NCBI RefSeq assembly: GCF_900103535.1
Contig: NZ_FNHQ01000007.1
Location: forward strand, 1-64,000
DNA: 64,000 bases
Reading direction: 5' to 3'
DNA from: Megasphaera paucivorans
Lineage (GTDB): Bacteria > Bacillota > Negativicutes > Veillonellales > Megasphaeraceae
The notes under the pieces are model-generated. The model saw only the letters and a list, made by a program, of their open reading frames with translations. It did no database searches and was not told the DNA's origin. A program made the position numbers and the translations under genes. Shown here piece by piece: positions 485 through 48,007 of the stretch. Position 1 is the stretch's first letter. The number at the start of each line of letters is the position of its first letter.

Positions 485-2761
485 ATGGATGAGAAAGAAT
501 GGCTGGGACAAAGTAACCAAATTGGTATTGATATTTGGCAGAATAAATATCGTAATGATAGTGAGAGTTTTGACCAGTGGGTAGAGCGTGTCAGTGCGAA
601 AAATCAAGAAGTAGCAGCGTTGATAAAAAATCAAAAGTTTTTATTCGGTGGTCGTATTTTGGCTAATCGCGGATTGGAATATGCGGGCAAGAAAATAACT
701 CTTTCCAATTGCTACGTTATGACTCCACCGGAAGATAATATTGAAAGTATATTCGATCGAGCAGGTAAATTAGCTAGGACTTATAGTTACGGTGGGGGAT
801 GCGGCATTGATATTTCGCAGTTAAGTCCCAAAGGGGCACGTATTAATAATGCGGCTAAGGAAACCAGCGGCTCTATTTCTTTTATGACACTGTATTCCCT
901 TGTTACAGAATTGATTGGGCAGAATGGACGCCGCGGAGCGTTGATGATTTCCATTGATTGTCATCATCCTGATATTTTGGAATTTATTAAATTGAAAACC
1001 GACTTACATAAAGTTACAAAGGCTAATATTTCTATTCGTTTGAGCAATGAATTTATGGAGGCTGTCAAAGAGCGAAAACAATTCCGTCTTCACTATACGC
1101 GTGAAGAAACAGGACAGACTATTGAGAGTTTGGTAGATGCCGCCGACGTATTCCGCCTTATTGCTGAAACTAATTGGGATTATGCCGAACCGGGGGCATT
1201 ATTTTGGGACCGCATATGTAGCTGGAACTTATTAGCGCATACGCAGGAGTTTTCTTATGCAGGTGTCAATCCTTGTGCGGAGGAACCGTTGCCCGCAGGA
1301 GGAAGTTGTCTTCTTGGTAGTATCAATTTAGCGAACTTTGTAAATGATCCATTTACGGAAGAGGCAGCTTTTGATTTTGAAGATTTTAAACATTGTGTTG
1401 CCGTTTCCGTACGAGCTTTAAATGATGTCTTAGATGAAGGACTGCCATTGCATCCATTGCAAGAACAACGAGATAGTGTTCAACAATGGCGCCAAATCGG
1501 TCTTGGCATTATGGGGTTAGGCGATATGCTTATTAAAATGGGTTTGACTTATGGCAGTGAAGAGGCAGTTTCTTTCTGTCATGACATAGGGTTCACCATG
1601 GCGGATACGGCAATTGCAGCTTCCGCGGTGTTGGCGGAAGAAAAAGGACCATTCCCCAAATGCAATACGGCTGAAATTATGGGTACACCCTATTTTCAGG
1701 CGAATACAACCGAGAAGACAGCAGAATTAGTACGTTGCAGCGGACTGCGTAATTCACAGTTGTTGACAATAGCACCTACGGGAACATTATCTACCATGCT
1801 GGGAATTTCTGGCGGAATTGAACCGATTTATGCCAATTATTATGAACGTAAGACAGAGTCACTGCATGCTGCTGATGTATATTATAAGATTTATACACCT
1901 ATAGTTGCGCGTTATATGAAACAATATGGTATTTCAGATGATGCAGAACTGCCGGAATATTTTGTAACTGCCATGACGCTGCAATATCAGGAACGTGTTG
2001 CTATGCAAGCTGCATGGCAGACTCATATTGATGCGTCTATCAGTTCCACCGTCAATGTACCTAACAACTTTACTGTAGAAGATACAGAAAAACTCTATAT
2101 GTTGGCCTATGAGAGCGGATGCAAGGGGCTTACTATTTTTCGGGATGGGTGTAAACGTGCCGGCATACTTAGTACGCATTCAGAAGAAAATGCAGTTCCG
2201 ATTGCCGGAGCGGGGCTCGAACGTGGTGAGATTGTCTGCATCGATGATAATGTGATTGGCAAAAAACGTAAGTTGGTAACAGGGTGCGGCAATCTTCACT
2301 GTATGGCATTTTTTGATCCGGAGACAGGCGCATTGTTAGAAACCTATTTAAGCAAAGGATCTACGGGCGGATGCAATAATTTTATGATTGGACTATCGCG
2401 GATGATCTCTATTAGTGCCCGTGCCGGAATCGATATTTATACTATTGTAGACCAGCTTAATTCTACGGGGAATTGTCCGTCTTACTCCGTTCGGCGTGCC
2501 ACGCGGGGCGATACGAGCCGCGGCTCTTGCTGTCCCATGGCGGTAGGTAATGCGCTCATCGATATGTATAATGAAGTGCAAAAGGAATTGAATCCCAGTG
2601 AAAAGACGGCTGCACAGGAAATAAAAAGATTACCTGTCAGGCCTAAAGCTGAAACAAAAAAAACGGCTGAAAGTATTTTTTGTCCACAATGTGGAGAACC
2701 GCTTGTTTTTGAAGGAGGGTGTAACACCTGTAAAAATTGCGGCTGGAGCAAATGTTATTGA
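485..2761 (+). CDS. nrdJ: Adenosylcobalamin-dependent (class II) ribonucleotide reductase
   Basis: Reduces ribonucleotides to deoxyribonucleotides using a B12-derived radical, without oxygen and without a second subunit. The 758-residue protein has an N-terminal redox Cys in SNCYV (C76), the active-site NPCAE motif (N262, C264, E266) and the APTGTLS loop. A TSCPD-type domain follows (about 575-700), and the C-terminus has a CPQCG...CKNCGWSKC cluster expected to serve as redox cysteines or a zinc ribbon. The ATG at 485 follows a strong GGAGGAAA site. The gene is monocistronic upstream. No terminator follows it: the TGA stop lies inside the -35 box of the next promoter, so transcripts probably run into the T-box leader. 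Confidence 0.93.
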   Translation: MDEKEWLGQSNQIGIDIWQNKYRNDSESFDQWVERVSAKNQEVAALIKNQKFLFGGRILANRGLEYAGKKITLSNCYVMTPPEDNIESIFDRAGKLARTYSYGGGCGIDISQLSPKGARINNAAKETSGSISFMTLYSLVTELIGQNGRRGALMISIDCHHPDILEFIKLKTDLHKVTKANISIRLSNEFMEAVKERKQFRLHYTREETGQTIESLVDAADVFRLIAETNWDYAEPGALFWDRICSWNLLAHTQEFSYAGVNPCAEEPLPAGGSCLLGSINLANFVNDPFTEEAAFDFEDFKHCVAVSVRALNDVLDEGLPLHPLQEQRDSVQQWRQIGLGIMGLGDMLIKMGLTYGSEEAVSFCHDIGFTMADTAIAASAVLAEEKGPFPKCNTAEIMGTPYFQANTTEKTAELVRCSGLRNSQLLTIAPTGTLSTMLGISGGIEPIYANYYERKTESLHAADVYYKIYTPIVARYMKQYGISDDAELPEYFVTAMTLQYQERVAMQAAWQTHIDASISSTVNVPNNFTVEDTEKLYMLAYESGCKGLTIFRDGCKRAGILSTHSEENAVPIAGAGLERGEIVCIDDNVIGKKRKLVTGCGNLHCMAFFDPETGALLETYLSKGSTGGCNNFMIGLSRMISISARAGIDIYTIVDQLNSTGNCPSYSVRRATRGDTSRGSCCPMAVGNALIDMYNEVQKELNPSEKTAAQEIKRLPVRPKAETKKTAESIFCPQCGEPLVFEGGCNTCKNCGWSKCY

Positions 2762-2786
2762 CAAATTAGAAAAAGATGCTTATAAT
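2758..2786 (+). promoter_or_regulatory. Consensus promoter of the serine T-box operon
   Basis: TTGACA (2758-2763), 17 bp, TATAAT (2781-2786): a perfect sigma-A-type promoter. The -35 hexamer overlaps the nrdJ stop codon. Transcription should start near 2793, just before the T-box leader. Confidence 0.8.
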
Positions 2787-2979
2787 ATATCTAATTTCAA
2801 AAAAACGTGATGATGGAGAAGCAATTTATAAACCTTGTCAGAGAGTCGGCGGTTGGTGCGAGTCGATATGGTTATAAAAAGTTCCGCTCCGGAACGGCAA
2901 ATGAAGAATTTGACAGGGTTCGCCTGATATAGCGACTAAAGATGGCCGTATGGCAATTTGGGTGGCAACGCGGGAATAT

Positions 2980-3015
2980 AACTCTCGTCCCTATAGGGGG
3001 ACGGGAGTTTTTTTT
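2980..3015 (+). terminator. First T-box terminator
   Basis: AACTCTCGTCCC pairs with GGGGACGGGAGTT, followed by a run of T to 3015. Its 5' arm contains the strand that would form the antiterminator. Confidence 0.85.
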
Positions 3016-3071
3016 ATTTTGATGCCCGCGGATGTACAAAAACTACGGCAATTTGGGTGGTACCGCGAGGA

Positions 3072-3110
3072 TAGAGAAGCTCGTCCCAATGGACAAGACT
3101 TCTCTATTTT
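3072..3110 (+). terminator. Second T-box terminator
   Basis: TAGAGAAG (3072-3079) pairs with CTTCTCTA (3099-3106), with inner pairing of GTCC and GGAC, then TTTT. It ends about 25 nt before serC. Confidence 0.8.
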
Positions 3111-3134
3111 ATTTCAGAAAAGAGTGTGAAGGGA

Positions 3135-4208
3135 ATGAAGAGGGTATATAATTTTAATGCCGGTCCTTCGGCAATGCCTCTGGAGGTATTGAAACAGGTT
3201 CAACAAGAATTTCTTGATTTCGCGGGTACCGGTATGAGTATTGTGGAAATTAGTCATCGCAGTGCTGTGTATCAAGACATGCAGGATGATACGGTGGCGA
3301 TGCTTCGCAGATTGTTGGAAGTCCCCGCGGGATATCACGTAGTGTTTATGCAAGGGGGAGGGAGCATGCAGTTTCTTATGCATGGGGCAAACTTTTTGAA
3401 ACAGCGCGGAGGATATATTAATACGGGAGTTTGGTCAACAAAAGCTATGCAGGCAGCTGCTTTTGTTGGTGAAGTCTATGAAATAGCAACAAGCGGTGAT
3501 AAAAATTTTTCTTATATTCCTCGATCCGATACGTTCGTTATACGACCTGATACAGATTATGTGTATATTACTTCGAATAATACCATACACGGTACAGAAT
3601 GGAAGAAATTCCCAAAATTCAATATACCCGTTATATGTGACATGTCCAGCGATTTTCTGGCACGGCCCATTGATGTTTCCCGTTTTGATTTAATTTATGC
3701 CGGTGTACAAAAAAATCTAGGGCCGGCAGGGGTAGTAGCGGCTATTATAAAAGATTCTTTTCTTGAAACAGCGAGAACGGATATTCCCGTCATGCTGCAA
3801 TACAAGACTTTTACAGAACATGATTCGACATATAATACGCCTCCTGTGTTTTGCATTTATTTCGTCAATAAAGTCCTTCACTGGCTGGAAAATCAAGGTG
3901 GGCTTGAAAAAATGCAAGAGAGAAATGCTCATAAAGCGCAAATCGTATATAAAACGATTGATGATAGTGCAGGATTCTACATAGGGCATGCCGCAATGGA
4001 TTCCCGCAGCAACATGAATGTAACATTTAATCTCAGAACACCGGAATTAGAAAAAAAATTTTTAATTGAGGCAGATGCGGCAGGTTTTGTCGGCATAAAA
4101 GGACATCGCTCTATCGGTGGTTGTCGTGCTTCTCTCTATAATGCGGTTACAGAAGAGGCTTGTGCGGCGCTTTCTGAATTCATGCAAAACTTTCAGAAAA
4201 ATAATTAA
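3135..4208 (+). CDS. serC: Phosphoserine aminotransferase
   Basis: Second step of serine synthesis: transfers an amino group from glutamate to 3-phosphohydroxypyruvate, PLP-dependent. The N-terminus MKRVYNFNAGPSAMP is typical, and the PLP lysine is expected in YAGVQKNLGPAGV. The length of 357 residues is normal for the family. ATG 3135 was chosen because it matches family N-termini; an in-frame GTG at 3126 would add three residues, and neither has an ideal SD sequence. First gene after the T-box leader and 36 nt ahead of serA, so it should be induced when serine or charged tRNA-Ser is short. Confidence 0.95.
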   Translation: MKRVYNFNAGPSAMPLEVLKQVQQEFLDFAGTGMSIVEISHRSAVYQDMQDDTVAMLRRLLEVPAGYHVVFMQGGGSMQFLMHGANFLKQRGGYINTGVWSTKAMQAAAFVGEVYEIATSGDKNFSYIPRSDTFVIRPDTDYVYITSNNTIHGTEWKKFPKFNIPVICDMSSDFLARPIDVSRFDLIYAGVQKNLGPAGVVAAIIKDSFLETARTDIPVMLQYKTFTEHDSTYNTPPVFCIYFVNKVLHWLENQGGLEKMQERNAHKAQIVYKTIDDSAGFYIGHAAMDSRSNMNVTFNLRTPELEKKFLIEADAAGFVGIKGHRSIGGCRASLYNAVTEEACAALSEFMQNFQKNN

Positions 4209-4244: not shown

Positions 4245-5840
4245 ATGAAAATCTTGGTCAGTGATGATGTATCTGAAAAAGGGGTTGAGCTGCTGCGGCA
4301 GCATTATGATGTAGATGTGAAAATTAACTTGGATGAAGATGCACTTGTAGCATGTATTGGTGAATATGATGGTCTTGTAACCCGATCCATGACCCATGTA
4401 ACGAAGCGTGTGATTGATGCGGCAGTAAAGTTAAAAGTCATAGGCCGGGCAGGAGTAGGCGTTGATAGTATTGACTTAAAGGCGGCGACAGAGCGCGGTA
4501 TTATTGTTGTCAATGCACCTACGAGCAATACTATTGCTGCAACAGAACACACTGTTGCCATGATTATGGCGATAACCCGGCATGTTCCACAAGCTCATAA
4601 TTCTCTTATGTCGGGAGAATGGGATCGCAGTTCTTTTACAGGCATCCAATTACAAAATAAGACAATGGGGATTATTGGCGTTGGGCGTATTGGGTCTCGC
4701 ATTGCCAAACGGATGCAGGCTATGGAAATGAAAGTTATCGGATATGATCCGTATATTCCGGAAGAACGTTTTAAGCAACTCGGTATGGAATCAGTGGATT
4801 TAGATACCTTGCTGCAAAATTCGGATTATATTACGATGCATACTCCGCTTACTAAAGAAACACGTGGCATGATCAGTGCAGATGAAATAGCTAAGATGAA
4901 AGAAGGCGTCCGTGTTATCAATGTATCCCGCGGTAAAGTACTGGATATTTTTGCTTTGGCAGAAGCACTGAAGAGTGGTCATGTTGCGGGAGCAGCAGTT
5001 GATGTGTTTCCCGAAGAACCTCTTACTAAAGAAAAAAATCCGTTTTTAGGCATGACTAATGTTGTTATAACTCCTCATCTGGGAGCATCGACCATTGAAG
5101 CGCAAATTGGTGTTTCTGTTGATGTGGCAACTAGCGTTATTGCGGCGTTGAATGGGGAACCCGTTACCTCGGCAGTTAATATGGCACCTATTCCTGCTAA
5201 TATTTACACAACGATTCATCCATATTTTGATCTTATGGAAAAGATGGGGATTATTGGTGTGTATTTGGCAGATGGACCGATGAAGGAAATCAGTGTAGAA
5301 TATACAGGTGAGTTAGCAGAAACAGAAACAGGCATTTTAACAACGGCGGTTCTTAAAGGTGCGTTAAACCCTATTTTGCAGGACACGGTCAATTTCGTCA
5401 ATGCACCGGAGGTTGCTAAATCCCGTCATATTGCTGTAAAAGAAGTAAAATCACAGGATAGTGATACTTTTCTTGATGCAGTTACGGTAAAGGTAGCAAC
5501 TGATAAAGGACAGCACCGTATTGTGGGAATGTTGTTCAACAAGACAGAAGCTAAAATTGTAGAGATCGATGAATATCGTGTTGACTTTACCCCGGAAGGC
5601 TATTTGCTTTTAGCACCTCATGTGGATCAGCCCAATATGATTGGTCAAATATCCACCATTCTTGGACAAGCCGGAATCAATATTACAGGAATGCAGGTTG
5701 GTAAAACGACTACTACCGGCACAAATATTATGGCTATTGCTGTGCGGGACGACATTCCAAATGATGTTATGCTTAAACTTAAAGCTATTGATGGTATTTT
5801 AGACATGAATCTTATTAATTGCAATTTGCATAACGATTAG
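4245..5840 (+). CDS. serA: D-3-phosphoglycerate dehydrogenase
   Basis: Committing step of serine synthesis: oxidises 3-phosphoglycerate with NAD+. The 531-residue protein is the long form. It has a catalytic domain with the dinucleotide loop GVGRIGSR, catalytic Arg in VSRGK and catalytic His in TPHLGAST. An allosteric substrate-binding (ASB) domain lies at about 320-450, and a C-terminal ACT domain (from about 455, [11 protein letters not shown]) suggests serine feedback. The SD TAGGAGG precedes ATG 4245. Same operon as serC; 14 nt from the next gene. Confidence 0.96.
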
Positions 5841-5854
5841 CAGGGGGAAACTAC

Positions 5855-6499
5855 ATGATACGCATTATACTTGTACGCCATGGTGAAACAAAATGGAACA
5901 TTGAAGGTCGCTATCAGGGACAGGAAGATACAGAGCTTAGTGAACGAGGATTGCAGCAGGGGCGTATGCTGGCTGAGGGGTTACGCAATATACCCATTGA
6001 TTTTTGTGTTGCTAGTCCGTTGCAGCGATCTTATATGACTTGCCGGTTTTGTGCTGATTTACATGATCTTAATGTGGAAACAGATGAACGGCTGAAAGAA
6101 ATCAATCATGGTGATTGGGAAGGACGATTGGCAGATGATATTGCATCCCAATATCCCCGACAGTTTGCTCAGTGGCATACTCATCCGGAATTAGTTATGA
6201 TGCCCGGACCGGGGGGGGGAAGTTTAGAAGATGTACGTATCCGTGTTCGTTCTGCCTTTGATGACTATGCGCGCCGCTTCGATGGGAAAACAGTACTTGT
6301 GGCTGCACATGATGCGGTTAATAAAGCGGCTATTTGTGATATAATGGGACTTGATATGAGCCATTTCTGGCAAATTAAACAGGATAATACGTGTATTAAT
6401 GTTATGGAATGTTGCGAAGGTATATGGCGTATGGTATTGCTTAATTCTACTAATCATATGGGATATTTGTTTAGCGGAATTGAACAAAAAGGCTTATAA
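5855..6499 (+). CDS. Histidine phosphatase family protein, candidate phosphoserine phosphatase
   Basis: Member of the phosphoglycerate-mutase-like superfamily: LVRHGET near the N-terminus supplies the phosphorylated His, SPLQRS the phosphate pocket, and VAAHDAV the second His. The 214-residue length fits cofactor-dependent phosphatases. It sits between serA and serS, 14 nt after serA, and no HAD-type SerB lies in the operon. Metal-independent phosphoserine phosphatases of this superfamily are known (for example in Hydrogenobacter), so the third step of serine synthesis is a reasonable inference. Other substrates of this broad family, such as alpha-ribazole phosphate, cannot be excluded from sequence. 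Confidence 0.8.
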   Translation: MIRIILVRHGETKWNIEGRYQGQEDTELSERGLQQGRMLAEGLRNIPIDFCVASPLQRSYMTCRFCADLHDLNVETDERLKEINHGDWEGRLADDIASQYPRQFAQWHTHPELVMMPGPGGGSLEDVRIRVRSAFDDYARRFDGKTVLVAAHDAVNKAAICDIMGLDMSHFWQIKQDNTCINVMECCEGIWRMVLLNSTNHMGYLFSGIEQKGL

Positions 6500-6555: not shown

Positions 6556-7833
6556 ATGTTGGATGTAAAATTTATACGCGAACACGCTGCGGAAGTAAAG
6601 GAAAATATTATAAACCGACATGCTAAGGCAGATGTAGACCGTTTTTTGAGTTTAGATGAACAGCGTCGGAATTTACTGCAGAAAGTAGAAGCGTTAAAAA
6701 GTCAGCGCAATATAGTGACTGCTGAAATCAGTCAGTTGAAAAGAAATAAAGAGAATGCAGATGTTCAGATTGCAGAAATGAAAAAAGTAGGTACCGAAAT
6801 AACGGAACTTGACCGTAGTGTTCGTGAAGCGGAAGAGGAAATGAAGGATATTCAGTTGATGATACCTAATATGTGTCATCAGTCAGTGCCATTGGGGAAT
6901 GATGATAATGATAATCCGGAACAACGTAAATGGGGTGAAATTCCTGCGTTTGATTTTGAACCAAAAAATCATTGGGATATTGGGGCAGCACTGGGTATTC
7001 TTGATGTAGAACGAGCATCTAAAGTTACAGGATCTCGGTTTACCTATTATATGGGACAGGGCGCACGGTTGGAACGAGCAGTGTATAATTTTATGCTTGA
7101 TATGCATACGGAAAAAGATGGATATACAGAGGTCATTCCACCGTATATAGTTAATCGTGATTCCATGACAGGAACGGGTCAATTGCCGAAATTTTATGAA
7201 GATATGTTCCGGTTGGAATCTATGGAGTATTTTCTTATTCCGACAGCAGAAGTGCCGCTTACTAATTACCATCGAGGAGAAATTCTTGATGGTAATAGAC
7301 TGCCGTTGTACTATACTGCCCTTACCCCTTGCTTTCGTGCTGAAGCCGGATCGGCAGGCCGTGATACACGGGGGCTTATTCGTCAGCATCAGTTCCATAA
7401 GGTTGAAATGGTTAAATTTACAACTCCGGAAACCAGCTATGATGAATTAGAAAAGTTGACAAACAATGCAGAAGCTATTTTACAGGCACTGAAATTGCCA
7501 TATCATGTTGTTACTTTATGCACGGGCGATATTGGTTTCTCAGCAGCTAAAACATATGATATTGAAGTATGGCTTCCTGGACAGAATAAGTATAGGGAAA
7601 TTTCTTCGTGTTCCAACACAGAAGATTTTCAAGCTCGTCGTGCTAATATCCGTTTTCGCCGTACACCGGCATCTAAACCGGAATATGTACATACTTTAAA
7701 CGGATCGGGTCTTGCTGTAGGACGGACTGTGGCTGCTATATTGGAAAATTATCAGCAGAAAGATGGAACGGTTATTGTTCCGGAGGCTTTGCGTCCATAC
7801 ATGCATTGTGATATTATTACAGTACAGAAGTAA
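6556..7833 (+). CDS. serS: Seryl-tRNA synthetase
   Basis: Charges tRNA-Ser with serine in the cytoplasm. The 425-residue class II synthetase has an N-terminal coiled-coil arm that grips the tRNA long variable arm (about 30-105), motif 2 around [15 protein letters not shown] and motif 3 around [18 protein letters not shown] 6556 follows an AGAAAGGAAG site. It closes the serine operon, 56 nt after the phosphatase gene, so T-box control would raise serine supply and charging capacity together. Confidence 0.95.
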
Positions 7834-34206: not shown

Positions 34207-34396
34207 AAGAAGCAACCCTGCTGTGTGCGTAAAATGGTCTCGATGTTTTGAACCAACATCTTTTACATTGGGAGTCTGGGCTTCGTGAGCGTAAAACAAC
34301 GCCTGGCACAGGACTGTTGGAACTCATGAGAGGACACCCACCTGCTTAGGCAGGCTCAAAACTCGGTTTATAAACGGCATGGTGGGGCTTCTTTTC
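34207..34396 (+). ncRNA. ssrS: 6S RNA
   Basis: About 190 nt with no coding frame. AAGAAGC at the 5' end pairs with GCTTCTT at the 3' end, giving the long closing stem of 6S RNA. A large, loosely paired centre lies between. The GGACACCCACCTGC region is like that of Firmicute 6S RNAs, followed by a GCAGG hairpin partner. It has its own promoter, and rarA lies next, a neighbourhood also seen for the Bacillus 6S-1 gene. It binds housekeeping RNA polymerase and mimics an open promoter. End points are approximate. Confidence 0.8.
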
Positions 34397-47585: not shown

Positions 47586-47662
47586 GGCCTCGTGGTGTAG
47601 CGGTTTAACATGTCGCCCTGTCACGGCGAAGATCGTCGGTTCAAATCCGATCGAGGTCGCCA
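47586..47662 (+). tRNA. tRNA-Asp (GTC)
   Basis: 77-nt cloverleaf: acceptor GGCCTCG with CGAGGTC (one G-T pair), anticodon loop CTGTCAC with GTC, T-loop TTCAAAT, encoded CCA end. First of five tandem tRNAs. Confidence 0.95.
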
Positions 47663-47667
47663 TACTT

Positions 47668-47743
47668 GCTTAGGTAGCTCAGTCGGTAGAGCAGGGGACT
47701 GAAAATCCCCGTGTCGGCGGTTCAATTCCGTCCCTAAGCACCA
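47668..47743 (+). tRNA. tRNA-Phe (GAA)
   Basis: 76-nt cloverleaf: acceptor GCTTAGG with CCTAAGC, anticodon stem GGGGA/TCCCC around CTGAAAA with GAA, discriminator A, encoded CCA. Confidence 0.96.
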
Positions 47744-47747
47744 ATTT

Positions 47748-47822
47748 GCGGAAGTAGCTCAGTGGTAGAGCACCACCTTGCCAAGGTGGGGGTCGCGAGT
47801 TCGAGCCTCGTTTTCCGCTCCA
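47748..47822 (+). tRNA. tRNA-Gly (GCC)
   Basis: 75-nt cloverleaf: acceptor GCGGAAG with TTTCCGC (G-T at 7:66), anticodon GCC in CTTGCCAAG, T-loop TTCGAGC, encoded CCA. Confidence 0.95.
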
Positions 47823-47828
47823 TATGAT

Positions 47829-47902
47829 GGCGGCATAGCCAAGCGGTAAGGCAGAGGTCTGCAAAACCTTTATCCCCAGTTCGATTCTGGGTGCCGCCTC
47901 CA
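47829..47902 (+). tRNA. tRNA-Cys (GCA)
   Basis: 74-nt cloverleaf: acceptor GGCGGCA with TGCCGCC, anticodon GCA in TCTGCAAAA, discriminator T as usual for Cys, encoded CCA. Confidence 0.95.
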
Positions 47903-47918
47903 TATTTTTTTTCGTCAT

Positions 47919-48007
47919 GCCGAGGTGGCGGAACTGGCAGACGCAACGGACTTAAAATCCGTCGGATAGAAATATCCGTACCGGTTCGATTCCGGTCCCC
48001 GGCACCA
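47919..48007 (+). tRNA. tRNA-Leu (TAA)
   Basis: 89-nt class II tRNA with a long variable arm (CGGATA/TATCCG). Anticodon TAA in ACTTAAAAT, T-arm ACCGG/CCGGT, discriminator A and encoded CCA. The acceptor GCCGAGG faces CCCCGGC, leaving an A-C mismatch at 5:68. Confidence 0.93.

Follow-up and report, generated by a model that had tools for sequence, protein, structure and literature searches.

T-box leaders with duplicated terminator-antiterminator elements were reportedly described by Vitreschak et al. in 2008 (RNA 14:717). A review from 2020 refers to partially tandem T-boxes and calls their mode of action unknown (PMC7583486). It counts stem III, which needs an RRRxG string on its 5' side and AA on its 3' side, among the indispensable parts of the discriminator, and describes an antiterminator without stem III as a poor binder of tRNA. 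In fully tandem T-boxes and tandem riboswitches, a complete sensor is present for each terminator (PMC12452182, PMC9481103), and one scheme recognizes two categories, tandem riboswitches and adjacent aptamers (PMC12452182).

The leader considered here lies in the window, i.e., the whole 64,000-nucleotide stretch of Megasphaera paucivorans DNA that was analysed. It precedes the genes serC-serA-pspA-serS, which stand for serine synthesis and seryl-tRNA synthetase, and transcription is expected to start near 2793 on the basis of the promoter sequence. The window also contains a 6S RNA at 34212-34392 (RF00013, 85.8 bits) and a cluster of five tRNA genes (Asp, Phe, Gly, Cys and Leu) at 47586-48007. 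The features of the leader and its surroundings are as follows.

485-2761: B12-dependent ribonucleotide reductase gene, the upstream neighbour of the leader
2758-2786, + strand: sigma-A type promoter TTGACA-17-TATAAT, 12 of 12 consensus positions (a consensus match only)
2801-2995, + strand: complete T-box leader with stems I, II, IIA/B and III and antiterminator 1 (RF00230; refound by the whole-genome search)
2815-2890, + strand: stem I (RF00230 alignment and sequence), with base GGAG 2815-2818 / CUCC 2887-2890, AG bulge AGAGA 2840-2844 and a GNUG-type distal loop near 2852-2858
2883-2885, + strand: specifier UCC (Ser), read from the sequence and the RF00230 alignment
2940-2954, + strand: purine string AGAUG (candidate RRRxG, putatively assigned by the motif definition of PMC7583486) and stem III of module 1 (GCC 2945-2947 / GGC 2952-2954, loop GUAU)
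2945-2950, + strand: strand a, GCCGUA, the 5' strand of stem III, proposed to be shared; 6-bp complement of 3044-3049
2960-2972, + strand: T-box core 1, the 13-mer GGGUGGCAACGCG
2980-3019, + strand: terminator 1, a 13-bp stem (2980-3009) followed by TTTTTTATTT
3044-3049, + strand: strand a', UACGGC, proposed second 3' partner of strand a, followed by AA 3050-3051
3055-3067, + strand: T-box core 2, the 13-mer GGGUGGUACCGCG
3054-3088, + strand: antiterminator 2, U/GGG-CCC/A plus GCGAG/CUCGU (partial RF00230 match and fold prediction)
3070-3114, + strand: terminator 2, a stem of about 3070-3108 (-18.8 kcal/mol) followed by TTATTT; U-rich tail
3126-4208, + strand: serC, phosphoserine transaminase (alternative ATG start at 3135)
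4245-5840, + strand: serA, phosphoglycerate dehydrogenase
5855-6499, + strand: histidine-phosphatase family gene (best NCBIfam match phosphoserine phosphatase PspA, below its cutoff)
6556-7833, + strand: serS, seryl-tRNA synthetase

The 5' part of the leader appears to be a T-box with all the usual parts. In a cmscan of 2740-3200, RF00230 matched 2801-2995 with 88.5 bits (E 5e-20) over model positions 1-219, which is just below the gathering score of 93. The specifier UCC fits a host tRNA-Ser(GGA) (L111), and serine is also the amino acid of the operon. The 3' end of this tRNA consists of the discriminator base G73 and CCA, and the UGGC bulge of core 1 is the full complement of this GCCA. It was predicted that antiterminator 1 folds with about -8 kcal/mol. 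Terminator 1 is strong, and its 13-bp stem was listed by the strict terminator scan.

A second RF00230 match was found by the same cmscan at 3028-3088 (31.1 bits, E 3e-5). It covers model positions 161-216 only, which correspond to the 3' part of the family alone, beginning shortly before stem III and including the antiterminator. A whole-genome search gave 28 T-box matches and, among the matches listed, this was the sole 3'-only one. The bulge of core 2, UGGU, can pair with the GCCA of tRNA-Ser with one G-U pair, at tRNA position 73, and the predicted stability of antiterminator 2 is also about -8 kcal/mol. Terminator 2 was not picked up by the strict terminator scan, its U tract being weaker than that of terminator 1. 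In both modules, the antiterminator and the intrinsic terminator are predicted to be mutually exclusive. None of 100 dinucleotide shuffles of the window contained two cores at a distance of 83 nt separated by a T run.

A second stem I or specifier domain before terminator 2 was not found, as the second match spans model positions 161-216 only. The space from the T run of terminator 1 to core 2 is less than 40 nt in the window and just 16-21 nt in some relatives, for instance L062, L063 and L064. A reduced second stem I in this gap is ruled out by the length and by the range of the Rfam match, and since the second match lacks the stem I region and the space is so short, the leader is not a fully tandem T-box. 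It consists of one stem I, two antiterminators and two terminators, in series. The preliminary description had claimed one decoding domain with two T-box modules, each with its own terminator, and no space for a second stem I, and had suggested a covariance-model search with the Rfam T-box; the full and the 3'-only match, the folding of both modules and the spacing bear this out. The motif spans given there (2955-2974 and 3050-3068) mark real modules, but the cores proper are the 13-mers inside these slightly wider spans. Likewise, the idea of two complete platforms holds for the antiterminator/terminator pair, which is present twice, but module 2 is probably not independent and lacks a separate stem III hairpin. 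An origin of module 2 from a different T-box in this genome was ruled out, because the best match of module 2 is module 1 of the same leader, with a score of 31.5 compared to 20.5 for the best other leader.

A probable dependence of module 2 on module 1 became apparent from the flanks of the cores. Reading these across leaders revealed that the segment preceding core 2 complements the stem III 5' strand preceding core 1. Module 2 has the AA, while its 5' purine string and 5' strand are apparently absent. Second modules of Negativicutes usually have no stable hairpin of their own before the core (median -1.0 kcal/mol, compared to -10.9 kcal/mol for the composite helix of a and a'), and AA precedes core 2 in 97% of the Negativicutes cases. 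Module 2 apparently makes use of the 5' strand from stem III of module 1. Several leaders have variant strands that still pair: GCCGUAC/GUACGGC in L067, GCCGUAAG/CUUACGGC in L062, GCUAC/GUAGC in L033, UGAGAAAG/CUUUCUCA in L047 (trpD), GGAACACC/GGUGUUCC in L071 (livJ-like) and GCUUUCAG/CUGAAAGC in L072.

The pairing was evaluated by comparing matched strands with strands swapped between species. For the liv leaders (n = 14), the matched a/a' helix had -10.84 kcal/mol versus -5.59 kcal/mol (sd 0.89) after swapping, a difference reached in 0 of 5000 permutations. Matched strands were also stronger than swapped ones in the ser leaders (n = 39, P 0.0008) and the trp leaders (n = 6, P 0.0014), which amounts to group-level covariation between strands a and a' in liv, ser and trp. 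Both the Desulfosporosinus-type serC leaders, where the helices reach 9-10 bp in several species, and the trpE leaders gave P about 0.057. The test was negative in the aroF, Lactobacillales ABC, SSS and NSS groups; several of these carry a full copy of stem III, and in the NSS group the strands show too little variation. When compared with shuffles, 43% of the 61 dual leaders reached p < 0.05, but only 3% of the 32 single-module controls, and the two sets differed with a Mann-Whitney value of 1.7e-7. The helix slides by a few nt in the alignment. Run on the complete flanks, RNAduplex gave too much noise (median p 0.28), and a test for contiguous helices within limited distances of the cores took its place. 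As the test was changed after seeing the data, the single-module controls and the groups outside the Negativicutes weigh most.

In the window itself, the a/a' helix of 6 bp (p about 0.09 against shuffles) is suggestive of the pairing but not significant. When terminator 1, antiterminator 2 and the composite stem were imposed together, the constrained fold was less stable by 1.1 kcal/mol than one without the composite. With this p value and a fold that does not favour the composite, the case for strand exchange rests on the group. Both the unfavourable energy and the sequence of a' in ser leaders, which ends in GGC-AA as in module 1, fit another explanation, namely that the two modules act in series on the same tRNA without any exchange, a' being what is left of a duplicated stem III 3' strand and antiterminator 2 needing little or no stem III. 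Such a plain copy would not account for the liv leaders, in which the a' strands (6-8 bp) copy nothing in module 1 and yet match strand a species by species. Nor does it agree with the ser helices, which often extend into the loop bases of stem III and co-vary with them. This explanation is considered unlikely, and from the covariation we infer that a strand exchange takes place.

The leader is, with moderate confidence, an antitermination T-box that responds to tRNA-Ser(GGA) through a single decoding domain and two serial discriminators, between which a strand of stem III is exchanged. The order of events would be the following. Uncharged tRNA bound to stem I would stabilise antiterminator 1, and RNA polymerase would clear terminator 1. 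The emerging a' (3044-3049) would then displace GGC 2952-2954 as the partner of strand a (2945-2950), and the resulting composite stem III would loop out module 1. The looped-out module would be free to fold as terminator 1, since the polymerase is already beyond it. From the one 5' purine string, the composite stem III and antiterminator 2, the sensor may be rebuilt around the same tRNA molecule, as the borrowed 5' parts would give a working discriminator whose position with respect to stem I and the tRNA is unchanged, and a second decision would follow at terminator 2. Strand exchange would also remove a topological problem, because a tRNA end kept in antiterminator 1 would free terminator 2. 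As a charged tRNA would fail at either step, the leak-through values of the two steps would be expected to multiply, at least roughly. A steeper or doubly checked response, as put forward in the preliminary description, is a plausible prediction.

Leaders of serC were also gathered by SerC protein searches, independently of the two-core pattern described below. T-box cores were found in 25 serC leaders, 14 with two cores and 11 with one; the remaining serC leaders had no T-box core within 520 nt. The 11 leaders without module 2, together with at least five changes between the one- and two-module states on the SerC tree and the weak U tract of terminator 2 in the window, would agree with module 2 being a tRNA-independent backup terminator or a decaying relic, with regulation by module 1 only. 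All 14 second modules, however, have a tRNA-binding core with no more than one mismatch, and in all 14 dual leaders both modules are predicted to fold as an antiterminator competing with a terminator. A plain terminator needs neither a tRNA-binding core nor an antiterminator, which makes a backup or relic quite improbable. The conservation supports the view that both modules are kept and are likely meant for the same tRNA.

The history of module 2 can be read from the same collection. In a tree of modules, 13 of the 14 second modules form one clade (support 0.996) apart from all first modules, and the nearest neighbour of each of the 13 is the second module of another species; that of Sporomusa falls outside. 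Single-module serC leaders resemble module 1. A recent, repeated duplication is unsupported given this clustering. The pattern is read as an old second module that was probably lost repeatedly, although the change counts alone cannot separate gain from loss. In single-module Megasphaera serC leaders (L097-L102), a hairpin GAAGAC...GUCUUC without a U tract is located just after terminator 1, at the place of module 2, and is possibly a relic or a translation element. In another locus (L109/L110, G015:C8), serC is split over two reading frames, by a frameshift or an assembly error.

Two further explanations are very improbable. That one tRNA molecule binds stem I and module 1 and another binds module 2 alone would be allowed by the UGGN that both bulges offer, but no second decoding element fits, and a discriminator without stem III is poor at tRNA binding (PMC7583486). 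Just as hard to credit is a cross-pairing in which antiterminator 1 would join its 5' half to the CUCGUCCC of module 2 and one bulge would prevent both terminators: CUCGUCCC is indeed present in both modules, but the bulge of core 2 would then need no conservation, and it is conserved.

The distribution of dual leaders was determined with a pattern of two exact T-box cores separated by a T run. Of 380 Negativicutes genomes, 49 contained it, as did 22 of 398 genomes drawn from across the phylum, both counts being lower bounds since exact cores are required; the backwards pattern gave no match in the same 380 Negativicutes genomes. A scan of named genomes gave at least 120 stretches with the pattern. 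Among the matches listed are Megasphaera, Dialister, Phascolarctobacterium, Sporomusa, Desulfosporosinus, Paenibacillus and Lactobacillales, and the few in other phyla look like chance. Dual leaders occur in several Bacillota groups besides the Negativicutes, for the most part on amino-acid genes. The downstream genes, which were named by eye from translated starts and not by family search, include serC, serA, trpD, trpE and DAHP synthase, as well as branched-chain amino-acid ABC transporters and sodium-coupled transporters. The genome that contains the window carries another dual leader (L006; G000:C54:15931-16026, - strand) upstream of a sodium/solute-symporter-like gene; its strand pair is UGAUCUGAU/GUCAGAUUA, and the pairing is kept in the related L060 and L061 with one compensatory change. 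The preliminary description had called a duplicated platform alone rarer than tandem T-boxes with full aptamers. It is less common than the single T-box, but given these genome counts not very rare. Absence of the module in relatives, which was to count against it, holds in part: module 2 is missing from 11 of the 25 T-box-bearing serC leaders and present in 14.

Not all dual leaders are built alike. In the Lactobacillales ABC leaders L150, L181 and L202, the whole discriminator is repeated, including the stem III hairpin, and in some DAHP-synthase leaders (L174, L196 and L256) module 2 likewise comes with a complete stem III hairpin. Outside the Negativicutes, the signal of strand exchange is faint or missing where module 2 owns a full stem III. 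We propose two subtypes of dual T-boxes, one with a shared stem III strand and the other with a fully repeated discriminator. Three modules behind one stem I were found in L151, L240, L222 and L247 (Paenibacillus, Lysinibacillus and Priestia), and the next gene in L151, L240 and L247 looks like a sodium-dependent (NSS-type) transporter. Each downstream module there contains UCUUCAC or a near copy, the complement of GUGAAGA in the first stem III; these strands fit the model and give no test of it, since they hardly vary. A further three-module leader with one stem I (L085, the L168 locus) was seen in a Veillonellaceae MAG, 5' of a gene for a branched-chain amino-acid binding protein, with no clear strand pairing. 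We give even chances to the broader view that T-boxes with several platforms are a widespread subtype, in which stem III partner exchange hands one sensor along and two to three terminators are queried by one tRNA.

The comparative data offer a specific and testable mechanism, in which partner exchange of stem III would pass one tRNA between switches, and close relatives whose leaders for a given gene have either one module or two provide a natural experiment. If the mechanism is true, the OFF/ON ratio of an RNA switch could be multiplied without a second sensor, which would bear on cotranscriptional folding and riboswitch design.

With the canonical class I T-box (RF00230), the serC leader shares a stem I with specifier, AG bulge and distal loop, stems II and III, the T-box sequence, the antiterminator/terminator and a serine-pathway operon. 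Unlike it, the leader has an additional antiterminator/terminator module that lacks both a stem I and a full stem III of its own. Two serial terminators before one operon are also found in fully tandem T-boxes and tandem riboswitches, from which the leader differs in having no second stem I. The scheme of PMC12452182 has no slot for its layout of one aptamer and two platforms. The literature searched, which did not cover Vitreschak et al. (2008), contained no description of a shared stem III strand with covariation, and nothing further on duplicated or second antiterminators in T-boxes. Also close are the partially tandem T-boxes, with one sensing domain and duplicated terminator-antiterminator elements. 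The serC leader looks like a member of this class, as one stem I is followed by two antiterminator/terminator modules and this order is conserved in relatives. The architecture of one sensor with a duplicated switch is already known; the shared stem III, as far as searched, is apparently new.
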